41,819 bases of DNA from a virus. The DNA lies in IMG/VR virus record IMGVR_UViG_3300020478_001370, positions 1 through 41,819 of that record; one strand, written 5' to 3'. The notes beneath the pieces were generated by a model. The model was not told the origin of the DNA. It did no database searches and saw only the letters and a list, made by a program, of their open reading frames with translations. The first letter of the stretch is position 1. Every line of letters starts with the position of its first letter. Of this stretch, positions 8,545 through 37,895 are shown in pieces. A program made the position numbers and the translations under genes.

Positions 8545-10914
8545 ATGGCAAATAGAATACCACTAATAGTTGACGTACTAGACAGCAACAAAATTAAGGA
8601 ATTACCAATAGGTGATAACCTTGATTTAGGCGGTGCTGGTGTTACTAATGCTGGAACAATTAATGCTACAGACATCAGAATTAATAATGTTTCGTTTAAC
8701 AATCCATTCAGTGGTGACTATAACGACTTAACAAATAAACCAGTTATTCCAACAGTACCAAATGCTATAAGTGCCTTTGCAAATGATGTTGGATATCTAT
8801 CAGCAGGTACAACAACAGATCAAATTGCTGAAGGAACAAATAACTTATTTTATACCCTTGCTAGAGTTGATTCAAGAGTTAATGCACAAACAGGTGCAAA
8901 TTTAAATCTAGGTCAAAAGATAATAAGTGACTTAAAAGATGTTGCGGCTGTTACAGCAAATGATGATGGTAAAGTTTTATACTATGATCATCCATCTACT
9001 TCTTGGAAATGGAAAACAGATGCTGGTGGTGTAACAAAATTAACACAACTAAATGATGTTGATGCAGTAACTAGTGTTGATCATAACAAAATTTTATATT
9101 ACGATCATGCTACTACATCATTTAAATGGAAATTAGATACAAGTTCATTTACATTTAGCGTTGGCGCTGATGATTCAACATTAAGAACTATTAGTTCAAA
9201 TGAATCAGTTAAATTTGTTGGCGGTACTGGTATTACAACTGCTAGTGACACCGAAGGTAATATAACAATTACAGTTGGTAACATAGGAGATCTAGTAGAT
9301 GTTGGTACAGCTGGAGCAACAAATGGTCAGGTATTAACATATAACTCAGGTGCAGGAACTTGGGGACCAGGAAACGTTGCGGCACCAACTAATATTGACG
9401 ATTTAAATGATGTTGACACAACTACTACAGCTCCAGTTGATGACTATGTTTTAAGTTACAAAGATTCTACATCAAAATGGGAACCAAGACAATTAAACAA
9501 TGTTGATGCGGCAACTGTTACCACAGTCGCTAACTCAACAGCGGCGGCACAATTTGTAACGTTTGTTGCTACAGGTGACAGTAATGGTCAACAACTAAGA
9601 ACAGATGCCTCAATAACTTATAATCCTAATACAAATACATTAACAGCAACTTCGATAACAGGAACTACAGTTAATGCTACTAATTTAAATGTATCAGGTG
9701 CAATTGCAAACGGTGTAAACGAAATTAACTTTACTGGTGATGTTAAAATAGCATCTTCTAAAGAAGTTAGATATTATGATACTGATAATTCACACTACAT
9801 GGGATTTAAGGCTCCAGCTAATGTAACAGCAAGTAAAACATTTATTTGGCCAGATGGTGACGGAAGTGCAAACCAATTAATGCAAACAGACGGCAATGGA
9901 GTATTAAGTTGGGTAACACCGGCGGCTACAGGTGAATTAAATGAATTTTCATTTAAAACAATTGCAGTTTCAGGACAAAATAATGTTGTAGCAGAAACAA
10001 CAACTGACACATTAACGTTTGTTGCAGGAACAAATGTAACATTAACAACTGATGACACAGCTGATAGTATTACAATTAATGCAACAGGTGGTGGCGGAAC
10101 CCCAGGTGGTGTTGATGCACAAGTTCAATTTAATGATGGCGGCAGTACATTTGGTGGTGATGCAGGATTAGTATATAACAAAACAACTGACACATTAACT
10201 GGTATTAATGCTGTCTTTACAAAAGTAACAGCTGATGATATAGTAAGTTCAGGTGCAGGTGTACCGACTATTACTTCAGCAAGTAATTTAATATTAGATG
10301 CGGCTAATGCCGTTGTAGTACAAAAAGCACCTTTACGTATAGGTAGCTTTGATACTGACGGTATAGGAAATCTTGTAGGACAAGCTGGTGATGTAATTTA
10401 TAACAGTTCAGCAAAACAATTAGTATTCCATGACGGAACAGCTTGGGTTTCAACTTCAGATCCATTTACATTTAGTATCGGTGCTGATGACTCAACTATG
10501 AGAGTTATTTCAACAAATGAAGGTATTAAGTTTAGTGGTGGAACTGGAATTGATACAACAAGTGATGCAGAAGGTAATATTACAATTAAATCATCAGGTC
10601 CTACTATAGAATATGATGTAACTGCTAACGGATCATCTGCATATAGATTTGCAGGACCAGGTATTGATGGAACTGTAGATAATCCCGATCTTACACTATA
10701 CAAAGGATTTACATATATCTTTAACAATCTAGCAGGTGCAGGTCATCCATTTGAAATTAGAGTTAGTAATGGCGGAGCGGCATTTACAGAAGGTGTTACA
10801 GGATCTACAACAGGAACACAAACTTTTATACCACAACATAACACAAGTGATAGTGCGTTAGTATATCAATGTACTAATCATGCGGCAATGGTTGGTAACT
10901 TAACTATAGTGTAA
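8545..10914 (+). CDS. Modular tail-fibre protein with a C-terminal cupredoxin-like domain
   Basis: The protein has 789 residues. The N-terminus resembles phage fibre attachment regions. A repeated unit of the form L-x-D-V...G-x-V-L-x-Y...W occurs four times between about residues 125 and 320. A second module, FTFS(V/I)GADDST...NITI, occurs twice (near 9148 and 10464). The last ~100 residues (from 10600) form a separate beta domain with HPFEI (His codon 10744) and YQCTNHAAM (Cys 10870, His 10879, Met 10888). The His...Cys-x2-His-x2-Met set is the type-1 copper ligand pattern of plastocyanin-like proteins. A late box (8516) and an AGGA site precede it. It is inferred to be a virion fibre; copper binding is a hypothesis. 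Confidence 0.75.
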   Translation: MANRIPLIVDVLDSNKIKELPIGDNLDLGGAGVTNAGTINATDIRINNVSFNNPFSGDYNDLTNKPVIPTVPNAISAFANDVGYLSAGTTTDQIAEGTNNLFYTLARVDSRVNAQTGANLNLGQKIISDLKDVAAVTANDDGKVLYYDHPSTSWKWKTDAGGVTKLTQLNDVDAVTSVDHNKILYYDHATTSFKWKLDTSSFTFSVGADDSTLRTISSNESVKFVGGTGITTASDTEGNITITVGNIGDLVDVGTAGATNGQVLTYNSGAGTWGPGNVAAPTNIDDLNDVDTTTTAPVDDYVLSYKDSTSKWEPRQLNNVDAATVTTVANSTAAAQFVTFVATGDSNGQQLRTDASITYNPNTNTLTATSITGTTVNATNLNVSGAIANGVNEINFTGDVKIASSKEVRYYDTDNSHYMGFKAPANVTASKTFIWPDGDGSANQLMQTDGNGVLSWVTPAATGELNEFSFKTIAVSGQNNVVAETTTDTLTFVAGTNVTLTTDDTADSITINATGGGGTPGGVDAQVQFNDGGSTFGGDAGLVYNKTTDTLTGINAVFTKVTADDIVSSGAGVPTITSASNLILDAANAVVVQKAPLRIGSFDTDGIGNLVGQAGDVIYNSSAKQLVFHDGTAWVSTSDPFTFSIGADDSTMRVISTNEGIKFSGGTGIDTTSDAEGNITIKSSGPTIEYDVTANGSSAYRFAGPGIDGTVDNPDLTLYKGFTYIFNNLAGAGHPFEIRVSNGGAAFTEGVTGSTTGTQTFIPQHNTSDSALVYQCTNHAAMVGNLTIV

Positions 10915-10923
10915 GGAGAAGCT

Positions 10924-12441
10924 ATGAGTGAAAAACATTATGTTGTTTCTTTACACAAAGGCTTTGATAAAGAAGAAATAATTAACGACCTTAACCGTGA
11001 TACAACGTTAGACTCTAGCGTTGACAGTAACATAATCCCTGACAGAGAAGTACAAAATGTAAACACTAGACCTTCTAGTAAACGTATCTTTGAAGTTGCC
11101 TTAACAGACGAAGAAGTAGAAAAACTTAGAAAAGATCCTAGGATTGGTGATGTTAATACTCCTCTTGTATGGGACGATGACTGGATGGATTATGAACAAA
11201 CTGCTGATTGGACTAGAGATTCTATTACAACAACAAGAGGCAATTGGGGATTAGTAAGACAAGTTGATAAAACAAATCCTTGGGGTACTCTTGTTGCACA
11301 AGACTTATCAGCAGGAACAACTTATGATTATCATTTAGACGGTACTGGTGTTGATTATGTACACCAAGAAAGTAAATTTCGATATACACACGAACAATGG
11401 CAGGATAGAAATGGTGTTAGTCGTTTAGTACCTTTTCAATGGAATACACTTCCAAATTGTAGTGGCATAGCTACTCAAGATTATACTAATACAACAGGAT
11501 CAAGTTATCATGCAACGCATTGTGCCGGAACGGCAGTAGGAAAAGATTATGGTTGGGCTAAAAATGCCAATGTATACTGTTTAGATATGGATTCAGTTAC
11601 TTCAAGTTATTGGTTTGATGCTATTAAAGAATTTCATAAAGCTAAAGCACCAGATCCAGTAACTGGAGTTAAAAGACCAACAGTAGTAAGTGCAAGTTGG
11701 GGCTATAAATCCTACTTTACTTCAATAGGAGATATTCAATTTAGAGGGGCTAGTGTAGGAAGTGTTAAAAGTGCTGACTACGGAATGATTGGTGACGGAT
11801 TTGGTCGCTTTAATGCAAATCTTTATCAGCTTAATGTTGAAGTTGAAGAAATGCAAGATGAAGGTGTACACTACTTTAAAAGTGCCGGAAACCAATATCA
11901 AAAACTTTGTTATCCAACAGATATAGATTATGATAATTATATTAAAAGAACTGTAGATTCAGGAAATATTTCCGCAGGACAACCTGTATATTATAATAGA
12001 GGTGCAGGTAACATTGGACCTGATACAGTTGTTGTAGGTAACTTAGACAGTGAATTACATAATAATGGCGAAGCTACAAATAATTCAAGTGATAAAGGAC
12101 CTAGAGTTGATTTATGGGCGGCTGGTACAGATATAGTTAGTGCTACAAATACAAGTGATACAGCAGTATTAAATCTTAGTGGAACATCAATGGCTACACC
12201 ACAAGTTGCTGGAATGAGTTGTTTATTACTACAATTAAATCCAGGTTGGACACCTGCACAATTACGTAAATGGTGGCAGGATAATGCTGTTAAAGATTTA
12301 TTGTTTCAAGGTTCAACAGACGAAAATACACCATCTACTTTTTTCTCTAATAATAGAAGTTTAATGAATGGTCCGAATAGAATAGCTTATTTTCCGTTCG
12401 CGGCTCATAGGGCTATGACAACAAACGTGGGTATTGGTTAA
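10924..12441 (+). CDS. Subtilisin-like (S8) protease paralogue 1, catalytic Asp replaced by Glu
   Basis: The protein has 505 residues. Residues 1-80 resemble an inhibitor I9-type propeptide. The peptidase core shows H196 in HATHCAGT, the oxyanion Asn323 in SAGN and S422 in GTSMATPQVAG. Where the neighbour has the catalytic Asp (IQDDGI), this protein has HQESKF, putting Glu149 at the Asp position and losing the following Gly. It may therefore be weak or inactive. It has no signal peptide and sits among virion genes, so it is probably virion-associated, for example in maturation of fibre proteins or in digesting host surface protein. An AAGGAG site lies 7 nt upstream of the start. Its stop overlaps the next start (TAATG). 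Confidence 0.85.
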   Translation: MSEKHYVVSLHKGFDKEEIINDLNRDTTLDSSVDSNIIPDREVQNVNTRPSSKRIFEVALTDEEVEKLRKDPRIGDVNTPLVWDDDWMDYEQTADWTRDSITTTRGNWGLVRQVDKTNPWGTLVAQDLSAGTTYDYHLDGTGVDYVHQESKFRYTHEQWQDRNGVSRLVPFQWNTLPNCSGIATQDYTNTTGSSYHATHCAGTAVGKDYGWAKNANVYCLDMDSVTSSYWFDAIKEFHKAKAPDPVTGVKRPTVVSASWGYKSYFTSIGDIQFRGASVGSVKSADYGMIGDGFGRFNANLYQLNVEVEEMQDEGVHYFKSAGNQYQKLCYPTDIDYDNYIKRTVDSGNISAGQPVYYNRGAGNIGPDTVVVGNLDSELHNNGEATNNSSDKGPRVDLWAAGTDIVSATNTSDTAVLNLSGTSMATPQVAGMSCLLLQLNPGWTPAQLRKWWQDNAVKDLLFQGSTDENTPSTFFSNNRSLMNGPNRIAYFPFAAHRAMTTNVGIG

Positions 12442-14048
12442 TGGCTGACGAAAAAGAATATAAAGTTATTACTAAAAAAGGTATTGATATTGCAGAAATA
12501 GAAGCTGAACTAGAAAGAGATACAACTAGTGATGCTACTGTTAGTGCAAATGTTCCAGATAGAACTGTTGATGTAGCTTATGCTAAAAAAGCCAACAATA
12601 GAATTACTCATTATATGCTAACTGATGCTGAAGCATCAGAACTATCAAAAGATCCACGAATACACGTAGTAGAAACAGAACCTGATCCAAACCTTGCTAA
12701 ACACGAACCATACGAAATACAAACTGCACAGTTTGATAGATCTACATCTAATGATCAAGATGCAAAAAACTGGGGTTTATATAGACATATAATTAAAGAA
12801 TTTGATTCTGCTTCATCAAGTAACACATATTCAGCAGATTATACATATAGTTTAGACGGTACAGGTGTTGATATTGTTATTCAAGATGATGGGATTGAAC
12901 CTTTTGGTCATCCTGAATGGGAAGATGCACAAGGTAATACAAGATTTGAACAAATAGATTGGTATGCGTCTACAGGTATTGCAGGAACTATGCCAACAGG
13001 ACATTATACTAATGGATTTTCAGATGGTAATAATGCAGGACAGCATGGAAGTCACGTAGCAGGTATTGCCGCAGGTAAAACATTTGGTTGGGCCAAGAAT
13101 GCAAAAATTTATTCTTTAAGACATTATGGTGGATCTCCAAACGAAATCTCCGATGCTGACAAATTTGATCTTATTAGAGTTTGGCACGAAAAGAAACCTA
13201 TAGATCCCAATACAGGATTTAAACGTCCAACTATTGTAAATCAAAGTTGGGGTTGGAGTGCTGGGTATCCAAGTCCAATTACTCATGTCTTTTATAAAGG
13301 TGTAGATCAAAATATTACTGCACAATCTTTTAGTACTACTGCCTTTGCACAATACGGAATGGTAGCAACTAAATTTCCTTATGTAAAGGCTTCAGAGGAT
13401 GTTGAACAAGAACAATTAACAGATTCAGGTATAATTTGTGTTAAGGCGGCTGGTAATTATTACCATCCATGTGCAGGACCTAATGCACCTTATTATAGTG
13501 GTATCTATGATAGTTACTTTACATATAGCGGAGGCGATCTTCATTATAATCGTCCAAGTTCGCCACATAGTGATGATACTATATTTGTTGCAAATATGGA
13601 TAGAGAACAATTCGGAACTGAAGAATATATAACAGAGAAAAGTGAGAGAGGTCCACGTATTGATATAATAGCCGGCGGTGTTGATATTTCAAGTGCTACA
13701 AGCCAAGTTAGTGGATATCCTGGAACACAATTTTACCCAGGAAGTGCAACTCATAAAATGACAAGAATAAGTGGAACATCTATGGCGGCTCCACAAGTAA
13801 CTGGAGTTGGAGCATTATGGTTACAAGCAAACCCAGGTGGAACTGCCCAACAATTTAAAGATTTTCTTAAAATTCATAGTACAGCTAATTCTTATGATAG
13901 TGGTACAGATGAATCTTTTGATGATTTTAATACTGTTCCAAGACGTTATGGAGCACCTAATAGAATACTACATTGGCCCTATAATAGTCCTAATCCTTGG
14001 GGTTGGAAAGGTACTAGCGGCAGTGGCACAGCTGGAATAAATACATAA
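12441..14048 (+). CDS. Subtilisin-like (S8) serine protease paralogue 2, intact triad
   Basis: The protein has 535 residues and is a tandem paralogue of the preceding gene, sharing the N-terminal I9-like region (both contain TD.E...L.KDPRI) and the TFGWAKNA / DYGWAKNA segment. The triad is complete: D149 in IQDDGI, H202 in QHGSHVAG and S447 in GTSMAAPQVTG, with oxyanion Asn339 in KAAGN. PQV replaces the usual PHV in the serine motif of both copies. There is no secretion signal. It is inferred to act within the virion or at the host surface; a role in processing neighbouring fibre proteins is possible but unproven. It is translationally coupled to paralogue 1. Confidence 0.88.
   Translation: MADEKEYKVITKKGIDIAEIEAELERDTTSDATVSANVPDRTVDVAYAKKANNRITHYMLTDAEASELSKDPRIHVVETEPDPNLAKHEPYEIQTAQFDRSTSNDQDAKNWGLYRHIIKEFDSASSSNTYSADYTYSLDGTGVDIVIQDDGIEPFGHPEWEDAQGNTRFEQIDWYASTGIAGTMPTGHYTNGFSDGNNAGQHGSHVAGIAAGKTFGWAKNAKIYSLRHYGGSPNEISDADKFDLIRVWHEKKPIDPNTGFKRPTIVNQSWGWSAGYPSPITHVFYKGVDQNITAQSFSTTAFAQYGMVATKFPYVKASEDVEQEQLTDSGIICVKAAGNYYHPCAGPNAPYYSGIYDSYFTYSGGDLHYNRPSSPHSDDTIFVANMDREQFGTEEYITEKSERGPRIDIIAGGVDISSATSQVSGYPGTQFYPGSATHKMTRISGTSMAAPQVTGVGALWLQANPGGTAQQFKDFLKIHSTANSYDSGTDESFDDFNTVPRRYGAPNRILHWPYNSPNPWGWKGTSGSGTAGINT
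14036..14043 (+). promoter_or_regulatory. Probable late promoter box AATAAATA
   Basis: The box lies in the last codons of the protease gene. The predicted start near 14049 would give a 13-nt leader with AAGAGAG before the ATG at 14062. It matches the T4 box at seven of eight bases, but its position inside a coding region lowers certainty. Confidence 0.4.
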
Positions 14049-14061
14049 GAAGAGAGATAAA

Positions 14062-14766
14062 ATGGCCGTACAAACTATAAACATAGGAACACTAGCAAAC
14101 GACGGAACAGGTGATGATCTACGTGAAGCGTTTATTAAAGTTAATCAAAACTTTGAAAGTTTAGATCTACGAGCTCCTGAATCAACTACTGCAAGTAATT
14201 TAGGTAATGTTGGTGAAGGTGTTTTCCATCAAAAAGCTGGAGCAGATTTACAGTTTAAAAAACTCGTTAGTGGTGCTAATATTACATTAACATCTTCAAC
14301 TAATGGGATTACAGTTAATGCTTTAGGCGGATTACAACAATTAAATGTTGTTTCTGATTCCGGATCTAACCAATTAGCTGATGGTGATACGTTAAATATA
14401 TTCGGAGGAACAGGTGCTAGTACAACTTTAAGTGGCAATGTTTTAACTGTTAATACAACTACTGAACTTTCAACTGATACTACTCCAGTATTAGGTGGAA
14501 ATTTAGATGCAAACGGAAATAACCTTATTAACGGTGGAACATTAACAGCAAGTAGTTTTAACGGTACTTTTAACGGAAACTTAACTGGATTAGTACATGG
14601 TATTGATATTAGATTAATGGCACCTAATACAGCAGGTTTTAATTTTGGAACTTTCAACGGTGTAGTAACTAGTATGATTGACTGGTTAATTGCAATAACC
14701 GATGTAGACTTTGGTAGTTTTTATGTTCCAGACGGTAAAAGTTTTGACGCAGGGACTATAGTATAA
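14062..14766 (+). CDS. Short fibre/structural protein with shared N-terminal adaptor
   Basis: The protein has 234 residues. The first ~35 (INIGTLANDGTGDDLREAF then KVNQNFESL) are nearly the same adaptor as in the gene at 7252, which suggests both proteins dock to the same virion site. The centre is Thr/Gly/Asn-rich with LGGNLDANGNNL, a motif frequent in phage fibre proteins. The C-terminal ~50 residues (RLMAPNTAGFNFGTFNGV onward) form a distinct, more hydrophobic segment ending in DAGTIV. It is inferred to be a virion structural protein. Confidence 0.7.
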   Translation: MAVQTINIGTLANDGTGDDLREAFIKVNQNFESLDLRAPESTTASNLGNVGEGVFHQKAGADLQFKKLVSGANITLTSSTNGITVNALGGLQQLNVVSDSGSNQLADGDTLNIFGGTGASTTLSGNVLTVNTTTELSTDTTPVLGGNLDANGNNLINGGTLTASSFNGTFNGNLTGLVHGIDIRLMAPNTAGFNFGTFNGVVTSMIDWLIAITDVDFGSFYVPDGKSFDAGTIV

Positions 14767-14776
14767 GGATAAAAAT

Positions 14777-15655
14777 ATGGCAACATTAACAATTACATCA
14801 AATGGTTTACCTAACCCAGCGGCATTTGGAAAAAGTTTTGGGAATAATAGTTTTTCACCAAGTGTAAATACTGCAACTGCCCAAACGTACAACTATTCTT
14901 TTGTTTATCGCGGTGGCGAAAATACTACTAATGCACAAGTAACAGTTCCATTAACACCAATGGGTATTATGTCTAATGGCGTTGTATTTTTTAATCCTTC
15001 AATAGGACCAACAGTAGTTCCACCAGGACTCGATCCTACTACAGATAAACCAAGTGACGGATTTGAATATAATGCAGTAGCATTTAGATCAAATTACGGA
15101 GGAGATGATGCAGGCGGATGGCCAGAAACTAACGGACAATATCATTATATGTCTGGAATGTTTATGTTCCTTCCAACAGGTTCATCAGAATCTAATGCGG
15201 CCTGGAGTTCTACAATGTTAAGTGGAGCATCACCTACACCAACATATTATACTGGAACAAACTTTGGTGGAGATCAATTTAGACACACAGATGGACATAG
15301 CAAAATTATAGGATACTGTTTTGACGGTTATCCTATTTACGGACCTTATTCATATACAGATCCTAATGCAGAAGTAGGAACGGCTGTTACTAGAATGACA
15401 TCTTCATATCAGTATTATACAACAGAACCAGCAGGACGTGGTTATACTTACGGTGAAAAAGCGGCTGGTACGTTTATTAATGACCATGAATATCAAGTAG
15501 GTACAGGACACTTAGATCAATATAACGGAAGATATAATAAAACGCCTGATTATCCTAATGGGACGTATGCATATTATATGACTGTTGATGCAAGTATGCA
15601 ACCTGTTTATCCTTACATTGTTGGACCTTCAACGAAACAGCAACGAAGCGTTTAA
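14777..15655 (+). CDS. YHYH-domain protein
   Basis: The protein has 292 residues. NGQYHYM and, further on, HSKIIGYCFDGYPIYGPY are the diagnostic pair of the YHYH domain, a family of unknown activity found in secreted bacterial proteins and marine phages. The protein is rich in Tyr, Gly and Thr, with no signal peptide or membrane helix. It sits in the fibre/structural block, 10 nt after the previous gene, with AAGGA before the ATG. The second Y/H of the canonical YHYH is Met here (YHYM). A virion location is inferred; a metal-binding or enzymatic role cannot be told from sequence. Confidence 0.8.
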   Translation: MATLTITSNGLPNPAAFGKSFGNNSFSPSVNTATAQTYNYSFVYRGGENTTNAQVTVPLTPMGIMSNGVVFFNPSIGPTVVPPGLDPTTDKPSDGFEYNAVAFRSNYGGDDAGGWPETNGQYHYMSGMFMFLPTGSSESNAAWSSTMLSGASPTPTYYTGTNFGGDQFRHTDGHSKIIGYCFDGYPIYGPYSYTDPNAEVGTAVTRMTSSYQYYTTEPAGRGYTYGEKAAGTFINDHEYQVGTGHLDQYNGRYNKTPDYPNGTYAYYMTVDASMQPVYPYIVGPSTKQQRSV

Positions 15656-15685
15656 TATACACATATACTCATTATCAAAATATCC

Positions 15686-15693
15686 GATAAATA
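15686..15693 (+). promoter_or_regulatory. Late promoter box GATAAATA
   Basis: The box lies in the 64-nt gap upstream of the large structural gene at 15720. The T4 spacing predicts a start near 15699 and a 21-nt leader containing AAGGGA. Confidence 0.7.
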
Positions 15694-15719
15694 CTGTAAG
15701 TTAAGGGATATATAGCATA

Positions 15720-18700
15720 ATGTCAAATTTACCAGTTTGGAACCAATTATCAGGGTATAAACTAGCAGAACTAGAGGAAAGAGTAACTACGACAGTTAAT
15801 CTGCCTTTAGATCCTTCTAGTGCGGATATTATTACAGGATTTAAACCTGACGATACAGCATTAAGCAGTTCGCCATTACCTACATTAACAAACTCATCAG
15901 ATTTAAGTATTGAAAAAACTTGGACACAAACTGTTAATAATGTTCCTAATACAAGTGTAACTTACACTTATCCTATATCTATTAGAATTCCAACAATTCC
16001 ATCTTTAGCAACTAAAAAAGTACCAGTAGTTATTATACTACACGGTAACGGTGGTAATGGTTCTGCTGAAATTACAGCTTGGCAAAATTATTTAGGAGAT
16101 CATATTATAATTGCTCCTACAGGATATTCAAACTCATGGAATTTAGCCAACGAAGAATCAAAAGCACCTGACATAGAATTTCTTAAAGATTTAATTGCAA
16201 AGTTAAAAGGGTTTAATAATGTTGATCAATCAAAAATAAAATTTCTTGGATTTAGTAATGGTGCAGGAATGGTTAATAGAGCGTTTATTGAAATAGACGA
16301 CCCCGACATTGATTCATATGTAACTATTGGTACACAATTATATGATCCACAATATAGGAATAATACATTTTTCTTTCCGTCAGGACAAACAGGATCTAGT
16401 CCTGCACAATATAATACAGCAACAATACCTTTACAAAATAAACGATACTTGTCTATTCATTCAACAGACGATGGTACTATTCCTTATGCAGGCGGAGTTG
16501 TTTCTGGTAATATAGGATTAACATTTTTACCCGTACAGGAATCTGCTTTTGTTATCGCAAAAAGTCAAGGATACACAGGCGGACAAATTCCAGATGGTGG
16601 AGGAGTATTTTATGGAACAAATAATACTTACTACTACAGTTATTTAGGCGGGCGAGTAACACATTATAAAACTCAAGCAGGACATACAATAGCACCCTTT
16701 ATGCGAGAAATTGTTCAAGCGTTTATGACGTATGTACCTAGTACTGCTCCTGACATTTATTTAGAAGCAGGATCAAGTACAGCTATACAACTTAATACAA
16801 GTATTATAAGTTTAATTAGTGGTAAGTTACCTCCTGGAATGAGATTAGAAGAAAATCAAATAGTAGGAACACCATTTGAAGTACAACGTGGTGAAACATT
16901 TGAATTTGTATTACGTGCAACTAATTCTTCTGGAATTGCTGATAGAACATTTAATATTGTTGTAAATGGTCCTGATGCACCTGTATGGACAACTAATGAA
17001 GGTAAACTTCCTTTAGGGCCTAATAATTCTTTTTATATTATAGATAGCAGTATTGTTGACTTCCAACTTTCTGCAATTGATCCAGATTTACCAGCAGGTG
17101 ATAAACTAGAATATTTTATTGCAGATGGTGATGGTACATTACCTCCAGGTATAAAATTAACTGACCAAGGAAGACTGATTGGAATTGTTGATCCTATTTT
17201 GGCATTAGATTTAGCATCTAGTAGTGGATTTTATGATACTACACAGTTTGATAGTTTTCCTTTCGACTTTGGTTTACGAAGTGCTAATGGGTATGAAAGT
17301 TATTTTTATGATACTACAGGATATGACTTTGCTATTGAAACACGTAGTCCTAAAAAACTTAATAGATTTTTTGAATTTATAGTAAGTGTTAGTGACGGTG
17401 ATACAATAGTAAAAAGGAAATTTATAATCTTCTTAGTAGGTGATGACTTCTTACGTGCAGACAATACTGTTATGCAAGTAGGTACCGGAATATTTACAGC
17501 TGATAATACATTCCTTAGAACACCTGTTTGGTTAACACCGGCTAACATTGGATATAAACGAGCAAATAACTATGTAACAATATATTTAGATGTATTTGAT
17601 CCTAACACTATTGTAGGCAAATTAAATTATTCTTTAGAACAATATAATGATGATGGAAGTGCAAGTACTTTACCACCAGGAATGGCATTAGATGTTAATA
17701 CTGGTGAAATTGCAGGACGAGTTCCTTATCAGCCAGCTATTACTAAAGAATATAAATTTACAATTGACGCAAGACGCTTTACTGATCAAGCAGTTAAATT
17801 AGCTTCTAAGAAAAAAACATTTACTGTTAAAATATTAGGCGAAGTTGAAAGTGCAATAGAATGGGAAACTTCCGCTGACCTAGGAACTATTAAAGCAAAC
17901 TTTATTAGTACCTTTAGTGTAAAAGCAAAAATCCTTAACCAATCAATTAGTAGTAAAGTTTTATATAGAATTACTGCCGGAGAGTTGCCACCAGGATTAA
18001 AGTTAAATCCTAACGGAGAAATTGTTGGCAAAGTAAATCAATTTAAAAATTTTGATGAAATAGGAAAATCCTGGAACAAAGGATTAACAACAATTGATAA
18101 AAATGTACTTACACTAGATAATTCTACAACTACTATTGATAGAAAATTTAAATTTACAGTTGAAGCTAGAGACCGTTTTGGATTTAGTGTATTATCACAA
18201 GAGTATAATATTGTAGTTTCTGATCCTGATAATATAAGTTATAGTAATTTGTATGTTAAGCCTTTTATGAAGACAAATCAAAGAACACTTTATAATAACT
18301 TTATTGGTGATCCTAATATATTCGATCCTGATAAAATTTATAGACCTAACGATCCTTCATTTGGACTACAAAAAGAAATTAAAATGTTAGTATATGCAGG
18401 AATCGAAACTAAAGACGTTAAAGAATATGTTTCAGCATCTAGAAAAAATCACAAAAGAAAAAGGTATAAACTTGGAGCAGTTAAAACAGCAGTAGCCAAA
18501 ACAGCAGGAACAAATACTATTGAATATGAAGTTGTTTATTTAGAAGTAATTGATCCTTATGATTCAACATCTAGTACTGATGTTCAAAATACAGTTGATG
18601 TTAAAACTAAAGGCAAACATACTGTAGATAGCGTATCATATGAATCGTTTGACGATGTTACAAAAGAAGGGGCAGGTATTGCCGTATTTGAAATAGTAAA

Positions 18701-19253
18701 TTCTTTAGGCTTTACAGTTCAAGTAGTAGCTCTTGGTAATGACTTAGAAATTGTTACTAGAAATAATGGTACAATAATAATTGACGCAAACGGAACAATT
18801 CAAGTACAACTAAAAGATGGAAGTACTGTAACAGCCGGAACAATTGCTACAACTACTAGTGATCCATTTAGATGGAGACCTAAATATTCACCAATAAAAA
18901 CTGATAGTGATGCTATTCTAATTAGCGATCCTTTTAACACTAAACGTTATATTAGCAACATTACTAATATGCGTAAAAATATGAAAAAAGTTGGAGTTAC
19001 AGAACGTGATTTCTTACCACTATGGATGACTACTGCTCAAGGTACTTCTGTACAAGAATTAGGATTTGTAACAGCTATTCCATTATGTTACTGCAAACCT
19101 GGTACTAGTGCCACTATAGCATTAAATATTGCTAACAATAAGTTCAATTTTAGAAGTTTAGATTTTGAAATTGATAGATATATCATTGATGCTACTAAAG
19201 GAAATAGCTACGAGCAGTATATACCGTTCGGGAATTATGCCTTTAATGTTTAA
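15720..19253 (+). CDS. Large virion protein: N-terminal alpha/beta-hydrolase (PHB-depolymerase-like) domain plus Ig-like LPPG repeats
   Basis: The protein has 1177 residues. Residues ~85-335 look like an esterase of the PHB-depolymerase/feruloyl-esterase type: oxyanion motif LHGNGGNG (107-114), nucleophile elbow GFSNGAG (S179), an acid in STDDGTIPY (D250 or D251) and H322 in QAGHT. The complete triad suggests activity. From ~340 to 840 at least four segments carry LPPGM/I/L followed by G-x-(I/L)-x-G (He_PIG/cadherin-like Ig folds), the usual make-up of large marine T4-like structural proteins. The C-terminal ~330 residues, with NLYVKPFMK and later RWRPKYSPIK, resemble conserved baseplate-associated sequence. 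Role inferred: a tail or baseplate protein carrying a surface-degrading enzyme domain. Confidence 0.8.
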   Translation: MSNLPVWNQLSGYKLAELEERVTTTVNLPLDPSSADIITGFKPDDTALSSSPLPTLTNSSDLSIEKTWTQTVNNVPNTSVTYTYPISIRIPTIPSLATKKVPVVIILHGNGGNGSAEITAWQNYLGDHIIIAPTGYSNSWNLANEESKAPDIEFLKDLIAKLKGFNNVDQSKIKFLGFSNGAGMVNRAFIEIDDPDIDSYVTIGTQLYDPQYRNNTFFFPSGQTGSSPAQYNTATIPLQNKRYLSIHSTDDGTIPYAGGVVSGNIGLTFLPVQESAFVIAKSQGYTGGQIPDGGGVFYGTNNTYYYSYLGGRVTHYKTQAGHTIAPFMREIVQAFMTYVPSTAPDIYLEAGSSTAIQLNTSIISLISGKLPPGMRLEENQIVGTPFEVQRGETFEFVLRATNSSGIADRTFNIVVNGPDAPVWTTNEGKLPLGPNNSFYIIDSSIVDFQLSAIDPDLPAGDKLEYFIADGDGTLPPGIKLTDQGRLIGIVDPILALDLASSSGFYDTTQFDSFPFDFGLRSANGYESYFYDTTGYDFAIETRSPKKLNRFFEFIVSVSDGDTIVKRKFIIFLVGDDFLRADNTVMQVGTGIFTADNTFLRTPVWLTPANIGYKRANNYVTIYLDVFDPNTIVGKLNYSLEQYNDDGSASTLPPGMALDVNTGEIAGRVPYQPAITKEYKFTIDARRFTDQAVKLASKKKTFTVKILGEVESAIEWETSADLGTIKANFISTFSVKAKILNQSISSKVLYRITAGELPPGLKLNPNGEIVGKVNQFKNFDEIGKSWNKGLTTIDKNVLTLDNSTTTIDRKFKFTVEARDRFGFSVLSQEYNIVVSDPDNISYSNLYVKPFMKTNQRTLYNNFIGDPNIFDPDKIYRPNDPSFGLQKEIKMLVYAGIETKDVKEYVSASRKNHKRKRYKLGAVKTAVAKTAGTNTIEYEVVYLEVIDPYDSTSSTDVQNTVDVKTKGKHTVDSVSYESFDDVTKEGAGIAVFEIVNSLGFTVQVVALGNDLEIVTRNNGTIIIDANGTIQVQLKDGSTVTAGTIATTTSDPFRWRPKYSPIKTDSDAILISDPFNTKRYISNITNMRKNMKKVGVTERDFLPLWMTTAQGTSVQELGFVTAIPLCYCKPGTSATIALNIANNKFNFRSLDFEIDRYIIDATKGNSYEQYIPFGNYAFNV

Positions 19254-20097: not shown

Positions 20098-20628
20098 ATG
20101 AAGATGCAAATAGATAATCTAGGTGTACCACGATTCACTGTCCAAGATATTATAAATTTAATTTATGAAGGGAATGGTGATAAGCTCTCTAAAATTTTGG
20201 TAGAGCCAAATCGTGATACAGAATTATATAACAAATATATTAAAGAAATTGGAGTGAACCTTGCTCCACTTAAATCATATCAACCACTTCCATACGAAAA
20301 AAAAGATTTTGATAAGACGTTACAAGAAGAATGGTTTATGCCAGACAAGTACAAAAAATTAGATATCTATAATTATGTTTTAGACCAATGTCCAGACGAA
20401 CCAAAAGAAATGGCTAGAGTTTGTGAAGAGATGCATGAATATGATAAACGAGGTATGTTCAATTTATTAAGATTTCTTGTATATTTGGTAGACATAATGA
20501 GAGAAAATAACATAGTTTGGGGTGTAGGACGTGGTTCTAGTGTATCAAGTTATGTGCTATACTTAATTGGAATTCATAAAATTAACTCAATCCAGTATGA
20601 GCTAGACTGGCATGAGTTCATGAGATAA
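20098..20628 (+). CDS. Stand-alone DnaE-like (DNA polymerase III alpha) fragment
   Basis: The protein has 176 residues. Its C-terminal ~60 residues match the start of the C-family polymerase palm: an F-x-L-x-x-x-x-D-I-M-R-E-N-N helix, then WGVGRGSSVSSYVLYLIGI (compare G-x-G-R-G-S-x-x-G-S-L-V-A-Y in bacterial DnaE) and x-x-Y-x-L-D-W-x-x-F-x-R. The gene stops just where the catalytic Asp-x-Asp motif would follow, and there is no PHP domain, so it cannot polymerise alone. The N-terminal ~110 residues are unlike anything I recognise. No ribosome binding site is visible. It could be a decoy or accessory protein acting on the host polymerase; this is inference. Confidence 0.6.
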   Translation: MKMQIDNLGVPRFTVQDIINLIYEGNGDKLSKILVEPNRDTELYNKYIKEIGVNLAPLKSYQPLPYEKKDFDKTLQEEWFMPDKYKKLDIYNYVLDQCPDEPKEMARVCEEMHEYDKRGMFNLLRFLVYLVDIMRENNIVWGVGRGSSVSSYVLYLIGIHKINSIQYELDWHEFMR

Positions 20629-35157: not shown

Positions 35158-35662
35158 TAGTTGGTTAGAAAAAAAAGTAGCACCTTTTGATTTTAATATC
35201 CATAATGCTGTAGACATTGAAAAAGAAATGTCAACAATTATGCTAGAAAATGAAGGTGTTGGATTAGCGGCTAACCAAGTTGAACTAGATGCTCAAATTT
35301 TTATTATATCCCCAACTGATTTAAAAGGCTACGAAGACAAAAAACCGTTTGCTATCATTAATCCTAAAATAACTCATGTAACTGAAGAAACAATTATAGG
35401 TGAAGAAGGCTGTTTAAGTTTTCCGTTTTTATACTTTAAGGTAAAACGTCCTTACGGTTTGATAATAGAGTGTCTTGACAGCAAACAAAAAGAGTGTACA
35501 ATAGAACTACAAGGATGGAATGCAAGAATATTCGGACACGAATACGATCACTTGTACGGAATCAATTATACAGATAGAGTAAGTAAGTTAAGATTAAATA
35601 TGGCTATAAAGAAACGTGATAAATTTTTAAAACGTTATAAATCAAGGGTAAAAAATGGTTGA
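35135..35662 (+). CDS. def: Peptide deformylase
   Basis: The protein has 175 residues. All three deformylase motifs are intact: GVGLAANQV (41-49), EEGCLSFP (C93) and GHEYDHLYG (H135, E136, H139), giving the Cys-His-His metal site. It removes the N-terminal formyl group from nascent proteins; phage deformylases are known from cyanophages, where they may favour turnover of host photosystem proteins, an argument that does not apply to a non-phototroph. The C-terminus is basic. It is nested between the dnaJ-like and clpA genes with overlaps at both ends. Confidence 0.93.
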
Positions 35663-37895
35663 ACCAAGTAAACAATTACAACTAGTATTCGATAAAGCAA
35701 TTGATGTCGCTAAAAAATTAAATCATGAGTATGTAACTATTGAGCATTTACTCTTTGCTATGCTATTAGAAGAAAGTTTTGCTAAAGTTATGGAAGGCTT
35801 TGGTGCAGATCATGAACTAATACGTAAAAATCTTGAACATTATTTAAAAGCAAACTGTAATGACATTACTCTTCCAGAACCAAAAGATAAAAAATTTAAA
35901 CCAAAGAAAACACACGCTGTAGAACGTGTACTTAATAGAGCATTTACTCAAGTCTTGTTTAGTGGACGTCAAAGTATTGAAATATCTGATGTTTTTCTTA
36001 GTATGTTAAATGAACAAAAATCATGGGCATACTATAATATTGCAAAAGCAAATATTGATAAAGGTAAATTTGCAGAATATTTGAATAATGAATTAGAAGC
36101 TACCTTTGAAGACGAAGAAACACAAGGAATGGCTACTAGAGCTTTACGTTCATTTACAACTAATTTAAATCAATCAGTTGATCAAGGTAAAATTGATCCT
36201 GTAGTGGGCAGAACAGAAGAATTAGAAACAATTGCGTTAGCACTAGGGCGTAGAACAAAAAACAACTGTTTGCTTGTTGGTGATCCAGGCGTTGGTAAAA
36301 CTGCTATTGCAGAAGGCCTCGCCTGGAACATCGTTAATAAAAATGTTCCAGAATTTTTAATGGAATATAATGTCTATAACTTAGATATTGGTTCTATGTT
36401 AGCTGGTAGTAAGTATCGAGGTGATTTTGAAGAACGCTTTAAATTAGTAATAGCCGCTTTGAAAAAACGTGGTAAAACTATTGTATTCATCGACGAAGCA
36501 CATATGATTAGTGGTGCAGGTGCGGCAGGTAGTAATAGTTCAAACGATCTTGCTAATATGTTAAAGCCTGTATTAACTAAAGGTAATATTAAAGTTGTTG
36601 CTTCTACTACTTGGGAAGAATATCGCAAGTTTTTTGAAAATGACAGAGCATTAATGCGTAGATTTGCTAGAGTTACTATTGATGAACCTAGCAAAGCAGT
36701 TACAAAAGAGATTTTACTTGGAATTAAAAAATATTATGAAGAATTCCATAATACTACTATTACAGAAGAAGCAGTTGATGCCGCAATTAAATTAAGTATA
36801 AAATATCAAGCAGATAAAAAACTTCCAGATAAAGCAATTGACTTACTTGATTGTGCTTGTTCCAGATTTAACCTTAAAAAAGTAGATGAACGCATTGTAA
36901 CAGAAGCAGATGTTCAATATGAATTGGCAAAAGCTGTTAATCTTCCTGAAGAACAAGTTAAAGAAAAAGAAACACAAAACCTTGCTAATTTAGAGAAGAA
37001 CATTAAAGGTGAAATTTATGGACAAGATGTTGCTATAGCAGATATTGTTGATAAAATTCTTGTTGCCCAGGCAGGACTAAAAGAAGAGAATAAACCAATT
37101 GGTTCTTTTGTGTTTATGGGTCCAACAGGAATAGGTAAAACTGAAACAGCCAAACAACTTGCTTCACAACTTGGGGTAAAACTTGTTAGATTTGATATGT
37201 CAGAATATCAAGAAAAACATTCTGTCGCAAAACTAATTGGATCACCACCAGGATATGTAGGATTTGAAGAAAACGCAGGATTACTTATTACTTCACTTCA
37301 AGAAGCACCTAATTGTGTTTTACTTTTAGATGAAATTGAAAAATCACATCCTGATGTTAGTTCACTATTATTACAAATTATGGACAATGGATTTATTACA
37401 GGTAGTAATGGTAAAACCGCAGATTGTAGAAATATTGTTTTAATCCTAACAACTAACTTAGGTGCCGAACAAGCAGAAAAAAGTTTAATTGGATTTGGTA
37501 GTGAAGACGCTGAATTTGAAGATGTGGAACTTAAAAAGTTTTTCCCTCCAGAGTTCCGCAATAGATTAGATGGAGTTATTACTTTCAACAAACTAGAAAA
37601 AAATACTATGATAAAAATTGTTGGAAAATTCTTAGTACAACTTAAAGCTATGTTAAAAGATAAGGAAGTTGACATAAGTATTACAGATGACGCCATCGAC
37701 GTATTAGTTGATAAAGGATTTAACCAAAAGATGGGTGCAAGACCATTACAACGTGTTATTGATAAAGAGATTAAACGTCCATTATCAAAACTATTACTCT
37801 TTGGCAAGCTAAAAGACGGTGGTAAGATTGAAATCGATGTTAAAGACGGGGAATTTGTCTTAAACACTGAGAAAGAAAAACATACTGTCCATTAG
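35655..37895 (+). CDS. clpA: ClpA-type AAA+ unfoldase, both ATPase domains intact
   Basis: The protein has 746 residues, near E. coli ClpA (758). It has an N-terminal Clp repeat domain (about 1-145), D1 with Walker A GDPGVGKT (209-216) and B TIVFIDEAH (275-283), and D2 with Walker A GPTGIGKT (489-496) and B LLLDEIEKSHPD (556-567). The loop LIGFG (611-615) is at the ClpA position that docks into ClpP, and there is no ClpB middle domain. It should therefore feed substrates to host ClpP. It overlaps the deformylase gene by 8 nt. Phage-encoded full-length ClpA is unusual. Confidence 0.92.
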   Translation: MVEPSKQLQLVFDKAIDVAKKLNHEYVTIEHLLFAMLLEESFAKVMEGFGADHELIRKNLEHYLKANCNDITLPEPKDKKFKPKKTHAVERVLNRAFTQVLFSGRQSIEISDVFLSMLNEQKSWAYYNIAKANIDKGKFAEYLNNELEATFEDEETQGMATRALRSFTTNLNQSVDQGKIDPVVGRTEELETIALALGRRTKNNCLLVGDPGVGKTAIAEGLAWNIVNKNVPEFLMEYNVYNLDIGSMLAGSKYRGDFEERFKLVIAALKKRGKTIVFIDEAHMISGAGAAGSNSSNDLANMLKPVLTKGNIKVVASTTWEEYRKFFENDRALMRRFARVTIDEPSKAVTKEILLGIKKYYEEFHNTTITEEAVDAAIKLSIKYQADKKLPDKAIDLLDCACSRFNLKKVDERIVTEADVQYELAKAVNLPEEQVKEKETQNLANLEKNIKGEIYGQDVAIADIVDKILVAQAGLKEENKPIGSFVFMGPTGIGKTETAKQLASQLGVKLVRFDMSEYQEKHSVAKLIGSPPGYVGFEENAGLLITSLQEAPNCVLLLDEIEKSHPDVSSLLLQIMDNGFITGSNGKTADCRNIVLILTTNLGAEQAEKSLIGFGSEDAEFEDVELKKFFPPEFRNRLDGVITFNKLEKNTMIKIVGKFLVQLKAMLKDKEVDISITDDAIDVLVDKGFNQKMGARPLQRVIDKEIKRPLSKLLLFGKLKDGGKIEIDVKDGEFVLNTEKEKHTVH

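Follow-up and report, generated by a model that had tools for sequence, protein, structure and literature searches.

Textbooks treat the aspartate of the subtilisin triad as invariant. Glutamate serves as the triad acid in alpha/beta hydrolases, for example in the Ser-His-Glu triads of cholinesterases, which have an unrelated fold; for subtilases, limited and possibly incomplete literature searches (D32E, Glu-His-Ser and similar) returned no described example. Here we analyze two adjacent subtilase genes, copy A and copy B, in a 41,819-nucleotide viral sequence (IMG/VR record IMGVR_UViG_3300020478_001370; the whole stretch is called the window), the first of which encodes Glu at the catalytic Asp position. 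Proteinase K-like members of family S8, such as aqualysin I (PDB 4dzt), share with copy A the fold, the acid-His-Asn-Ser order, and apparently an I9-type prodomain, but they have Asp rather than Glu, and copy A lies in a phage tail block. The cyanophage subtilases of T4-GC 292 / phrog_9158 (P-SSM2, S-RSM4, S-H38, S-CREM1, S-SCSM1, and others) are homologous and are likewise found within tail-fibre/baseplate genes, some of them fused to virion domains; unlike the pair, they occur as a single copy, carry Asp in all 16 of the 16 checked, and are annotated as hypothetical or subtilisin-like. CspA, CspB, and CspC of Clostridioides difficile are also side-by-side subtilase paralogues with the prodomain kept and, in some, an altered triad; in CspA and CspC, two catalytic residues are mutated (PMC6636752), whereas copy A retains His, Ser, and an acid.

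Active sites of the two copies

Both copies matched PF00082 (Peptidase_S8; E = 3e-22 for A and 5e-24 for B) and the phage family phrog_9158, which has no assigned function, and are 33% identical to each other; an earlier reading of the window made from its letters alone (the sequence-only reading) had placed tandem subtilases at positions 10924 to 14048, and these limits are exact. Alignment gave the active sites as Glu149/His196/Asn323/Ser422 in copy A and Asp149/His202/Asn339/Ser447 in copy B, confirming that the first copy has Glu (codon GAA) where the second has Asp (codon GAT) and that both keep His, Ser, and the oxyanion Asn. Copy A also retains SWG and SAGN, the substrate-binding segments. 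The placement of the Glu was the same when the A profile was aligned to aqualysin, and in a hidden Markov model (HMM) built from Asp-type rows only, the Glu of copy A and that of a second, mostly Glu-type group (clade X, below) fell in the acid column, in which no third letter was seen. Copy B thus has the complete triad of an S8 subtilase (Asp, His, and Ser) together with the oxyanion Asn. Copy A has the subtilisin fold, His, Ser, and oxyanion Asn but not the catalytic Asp, which is Glu in every A relative holding the position; it is therefore a homologue with the S8 fold and an altered triad, not a canonical Asp-His-Ser member.

AlphaFold2 (AF2) models of copy A (predicted local distance difference test [pLDDT] 79, predicted template modelling score [pTM] 0.74) and copy B (pLDDT 78, pTM 0.85) both match proteinase K-like enzymes, copy A matching aqualysin I (Z 33.5, 2.5 Å over 263 residues) and copy B a keratinase (Z 34.1, 2.7 Å over 273). 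In the copy A model, Glu149 comes at the end of strand 144-148, while His196 and Ser422 each open a helix, the places held in subtilisin by Asp32, His64, and Ser221. Among acids that are invariant in A and absent from most B copies (Asp89, Glu236, and Asp335), none lies at the strand position; by homology, no other acid appears to take the triad place, which goes against the possibility, raised beforehand, that another Asp completes the triad. Nor does copy A resemble sedolisins (S53; Ser-Glu-Asp, with Glu for His and Asp for the oxyanion Asn), as His196 and Asn323 are kept. N-terminal to the catalytic domain, copy A has a prodomain-like region (residues 1-78), with strands and helices ordered as in I9 prodomains, followed by a low-confidence linker; its best Pfam match, PF05922 (I9), is sub-threshold (E = 0.11), with relatives reaching 8e-4. 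The copy B model aligns to pro-Tk-SP (3afg; Z 30.4, 346 aligned residues, root mean square deviation 4.0).

The sequence-only reading had also pointed to the loss of a Gly adjacent to the acid. This residue is indeed missing in copy A, but the observation is less telling than it seemed: of the 16 cultured-phage homologues with Asp, 10 also lack the Gly at this place, two residues beyond the acid, whereas 6 A members with Glu have it. Its loss therefore does not go with the Glu, and we rejected it as a sign of inactivation. The residue after His is Ala in A, Pro in X, and Gly in B and the cultured phages, a pattern that is suggestive and confounded by clade.

Conservation of the glutamate among relatives

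IMG/VR was scanned with copy A, copy B, and the A profile, using search patterns that did not include the Glu motif. The acid position is present in 56 A rows; two of these represent the window itself, and another duplicates an X copy (L021). Every distinct A sequence that covers the position (about 54) has Glu, His, Asn, and Ser, down to about 40% identity, and across an alignment of 15 A members, reaching down to 41%, Glu149 does not vary. B sequences have Asp, His, Asn, and Ser in all cases where they are complete. Bacterial subtilase frames from one phylum, a small sample, had Asp in all 18 of the 30 in which the acid was resolved, and one pattern-limited scan of genome contigs for a cellular source gave a single distant Asp-type match. 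As the sequence-only reading had proposed checking, conservation of the pair was assessed: A and B are kept together in nearly all loci of their sub-clade. Copy A occurs with no B nearby in at least 15 loci, each record having a single S8 match; these records are fragments, and B may lie elsewhere. One locus (L151, 4983-11566) has four tandem subtilases, one Glu-type and three Asp-type, and in three others (L024, 5974-8448; L025; L117, 3738-6212) the Glu copy has a C-terminal extension of ~300 residues with no Pfam or PHROG match.

In the 30 genomes with both copies, copy A was more conserved than copy B in 94% of 435 genome pairs (mean identity, 71% versus 64%), and the ratio of nonsynonymous to synonymous substitution rates (dN/dS) was 0.17 to 0.29 for A and 0.27 to 0.35 for B. 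Judged by its slower evolution than B and by dN/dS, copy A is under purifying selection and is not decaying, and we rejected the idea that it is a pseudogene.

A third subtilase, in L021 (1431-3218), also has Glu and scores only 58 bits to copy A. Its relatives form clade X (122 found, 78 loci kept, L169 to L246), in which the acid is Glu in 45 sequences and Asp in 11, and His, Asn, and Ser are invariant wherever present. In a quick family tree with long branches, the A clade (36 rows; Shimodaira-Hasegawa-like approximate likelihood ratio test [SH-aLRT] 99) is separate from X, so that the tree requires two Asp/Glu changes. Within X, four such changes are required, or five with the Asp-type outgroup; counting the starred branches only, that set still needs three or more. 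Sister rows differ (L182 has Glu and L190 Asp). With His, Asn, and Ser fixed, these changes mean that Asp and Glu replace each other while the remainder of the active site is conserved. In marine T4-like viruses, a subtilase of the tail-fibre block has exchanged its catalytic Asp for Glu repeatedly and in a lasting way, its other active-site residues staying intact, and the Glu-type copy often adjoins one with the normal Asp. Whether marine phage subtilases evolved a functional Glu-His-Ser triad twice or more, with Glu fixed in one clade and the acid alternating in another, is to us an even call. Some X members have about 270 extra residues.

Interpretation of the glutamate copy

The simplest reading is that copy A would be a functional subtilase with a Glu-His-Ser triad and an Asn oxyanion hole, Glu149 acting as its catalytic acid. 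As a whole, we lean somewhat toward an explanation in which copy A is active with this triad, the prodomains of both copies are self-processing, and both copies are tail proteases. Glu149 would serve, in place of Asp, as the triad acid with His and Ser; each copy would be made with an N-terminal I9-like prodomain and flexible linker, fold, cut itself free, and ride on the tail of the virion, close to the baseplate/fibre connector. The proteins clipped might be those of the host surface, as the phage adsorbs, or the adjacent fibre proteins, as the tail matures, and the Asp copy beside A may serve other targets or conditions. Having Glu probably does not abolish activity but adjusts its rate, pH, or specificity. 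Several points weigh against this reading: in well-studied serine proteases, a change of the triad Asp strongly lowers activity; Glu is one methylene longer than Asp; the exchange of acids in X would also be expected if only negative charge mattered; and active-site conservation can persist for a binding role.

It is unlikely, in our view, that copy A is instead attenuated and essentially single-turnover, cleaving its own prodomain slowly and then mainly binding a target in the manner of PCSK9. The retained prodomain and other catalytic parts would suit this, and PCSK9 is among the structural matches of copy A, though so are all proteinase K-like enzymes; there is no sequence sign of product inhibition or of a binding surface, and the Asp/Glu interchange in X suggests that the two acids are near-equivalent. 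We consider it similarly improbable that copy A is a pseudoprotease that assists copy B structurally, as a chaperone, or as a regulator, in the way that CspA and CspC assist CspB. The tandem, overlapping genes and the conservation of the pair in its sub-clade fit such a partnership, but His, Asn, and Ser never drift, and Glu copies are found in loci that, as far as those incomplete records go, have no B. Copy A also falls outside the Csp-type class, in which two catalytic residues are altered (PMC6636752): here an acid replaces an acid, His and Ser are kept, and nothing else is lost. A regulatory or binding role, as the sequence-only reading had suggested, is thus the less likely one given these Glu copies in the fragment records and the interchange in X. 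Finally, only a single base (GAT/GAA) separates the two codons, but a sequencing mistake, or a mutation that arose recently in this genome alone, has practically no chance of being the cause, since close relatives carry Glu and not the conserved Asp that would have indicated an error: two further contigs (L001 and L002) with 99% identical A copies have it, as do all A relatives with the position present, across many independent metagenomes.

If copy A is active, these phages would offer natural paired enzymes for testing the effect of triad-acid length. A large natural Glu family, together with a second one having both acids in close sisters, makes the placement required of the third triad residue testable on natural proteins. 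The analysis also names an uncharacterised set of proteases in marine phage tail genes, likely acting at phage-host contact.

Genomic context

The features of the locus are listed in Table 1. In most A loci examined, B-less ones among them, the gene before A is a relative of the phrog_677 connector, and the order connector-A-B-gp9N-YHYH-esterase is preserved in four loci (L003, L007, L025, and L026). Asp-type homologues are fused to a Laminin_G lectin (S-SCSM1), to an esterase and phrog_677 (S-MbCM7), or to phrog_677 (ACG-2014e). The same cyanophage proteins lead the BFVD matches. The Asp-type relative gp144 of S-SCSM1 bears the record note "virion protein," which is given to some structural genes and not others; in that phage, mass spectrometry of CsCl-purified virions detected 45 proteins (PMC9602691), with which the label is in keeping, although the link between the two is our inference. 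The position next to the connector, the domain fusions, and this label point to a putative virion tail protease, and the earlier placement of the subtilases inside a tail-fibre block holds.

Table 1. Features of the subtilase pair and its neighbours (window coordinates)
Feature	Position	Strand	Evidence
Baseplate wedge / tail-fibre connector-like protein, directly upstream of A	8545..10914	+	phrog_677 E=3.9e-36; synteny
Copy A, subtilase with Glu-His-Ser, 505 aa	10924..12441	+	PF00082 E=3.4e-22, phrog_9158, AF2 pLDDT 79, aqualysin Z 33.5
I9-like prodomain, copy A residues 1-78	10924..11157	+	beta-alpha-beta-beta-alpha-beta in model; PF05922
Glu149 codon GAA at catalytic Asp position, copy A	11368..11370	+	alignments, Asp-only HMM
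Catalytic His196, copy A	11509..11511	+	alignment; first turn of helix 195-205 (model)
Oxyanion Asn323, copy A	11890..11892	+	alignment
Catalytic Ser422, copy A	12187..12189	+	alignment; start of helix 421-438 (model)
TAATG, stop of copy A overlapping start of copy B	12439..12443	+	sequence
Copy B, subtilase with Asp-His-Ser, 535 aa	12441..14048	+	PF00082 E=4.9e-24, phrog_9158, AF2 pLDDT 78, keratinase Z 34.1
I9-like prodomain, copy B residues 1-83	12441..12689	+	model alignment with pro-Tk-SP 3afg, starting at residue 1
Asp149 codon GAT, copy B	12885..12887	+	alignment
Catalytic His202, copy B	13044..13046	+	alignment
Oxyanion Asn339, copy B	13455..13457	+	alignment
Catalytic Ser447, copy B	13779..13781	+	alignment
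Rest of fibre block: gp9/10-N protein, YHYH protein, esterase-like + Ig protein	14062..19253	+	Pfam/PHROG matches, synteny

Downstream, the YHYH protein adjoins the esterase-like and Ig protein (14777-19253), the esterase part being the one fused to a subtilase in cyanophage S-MbCM7. Elsewhere in the window, a short open reading frame (20098-20628) matches a piece of DNA polymerase III alpha (PF07733, phrog_11127), and another (35655-37895) matches a phage ATP-dependent protease family (phrog_4871).
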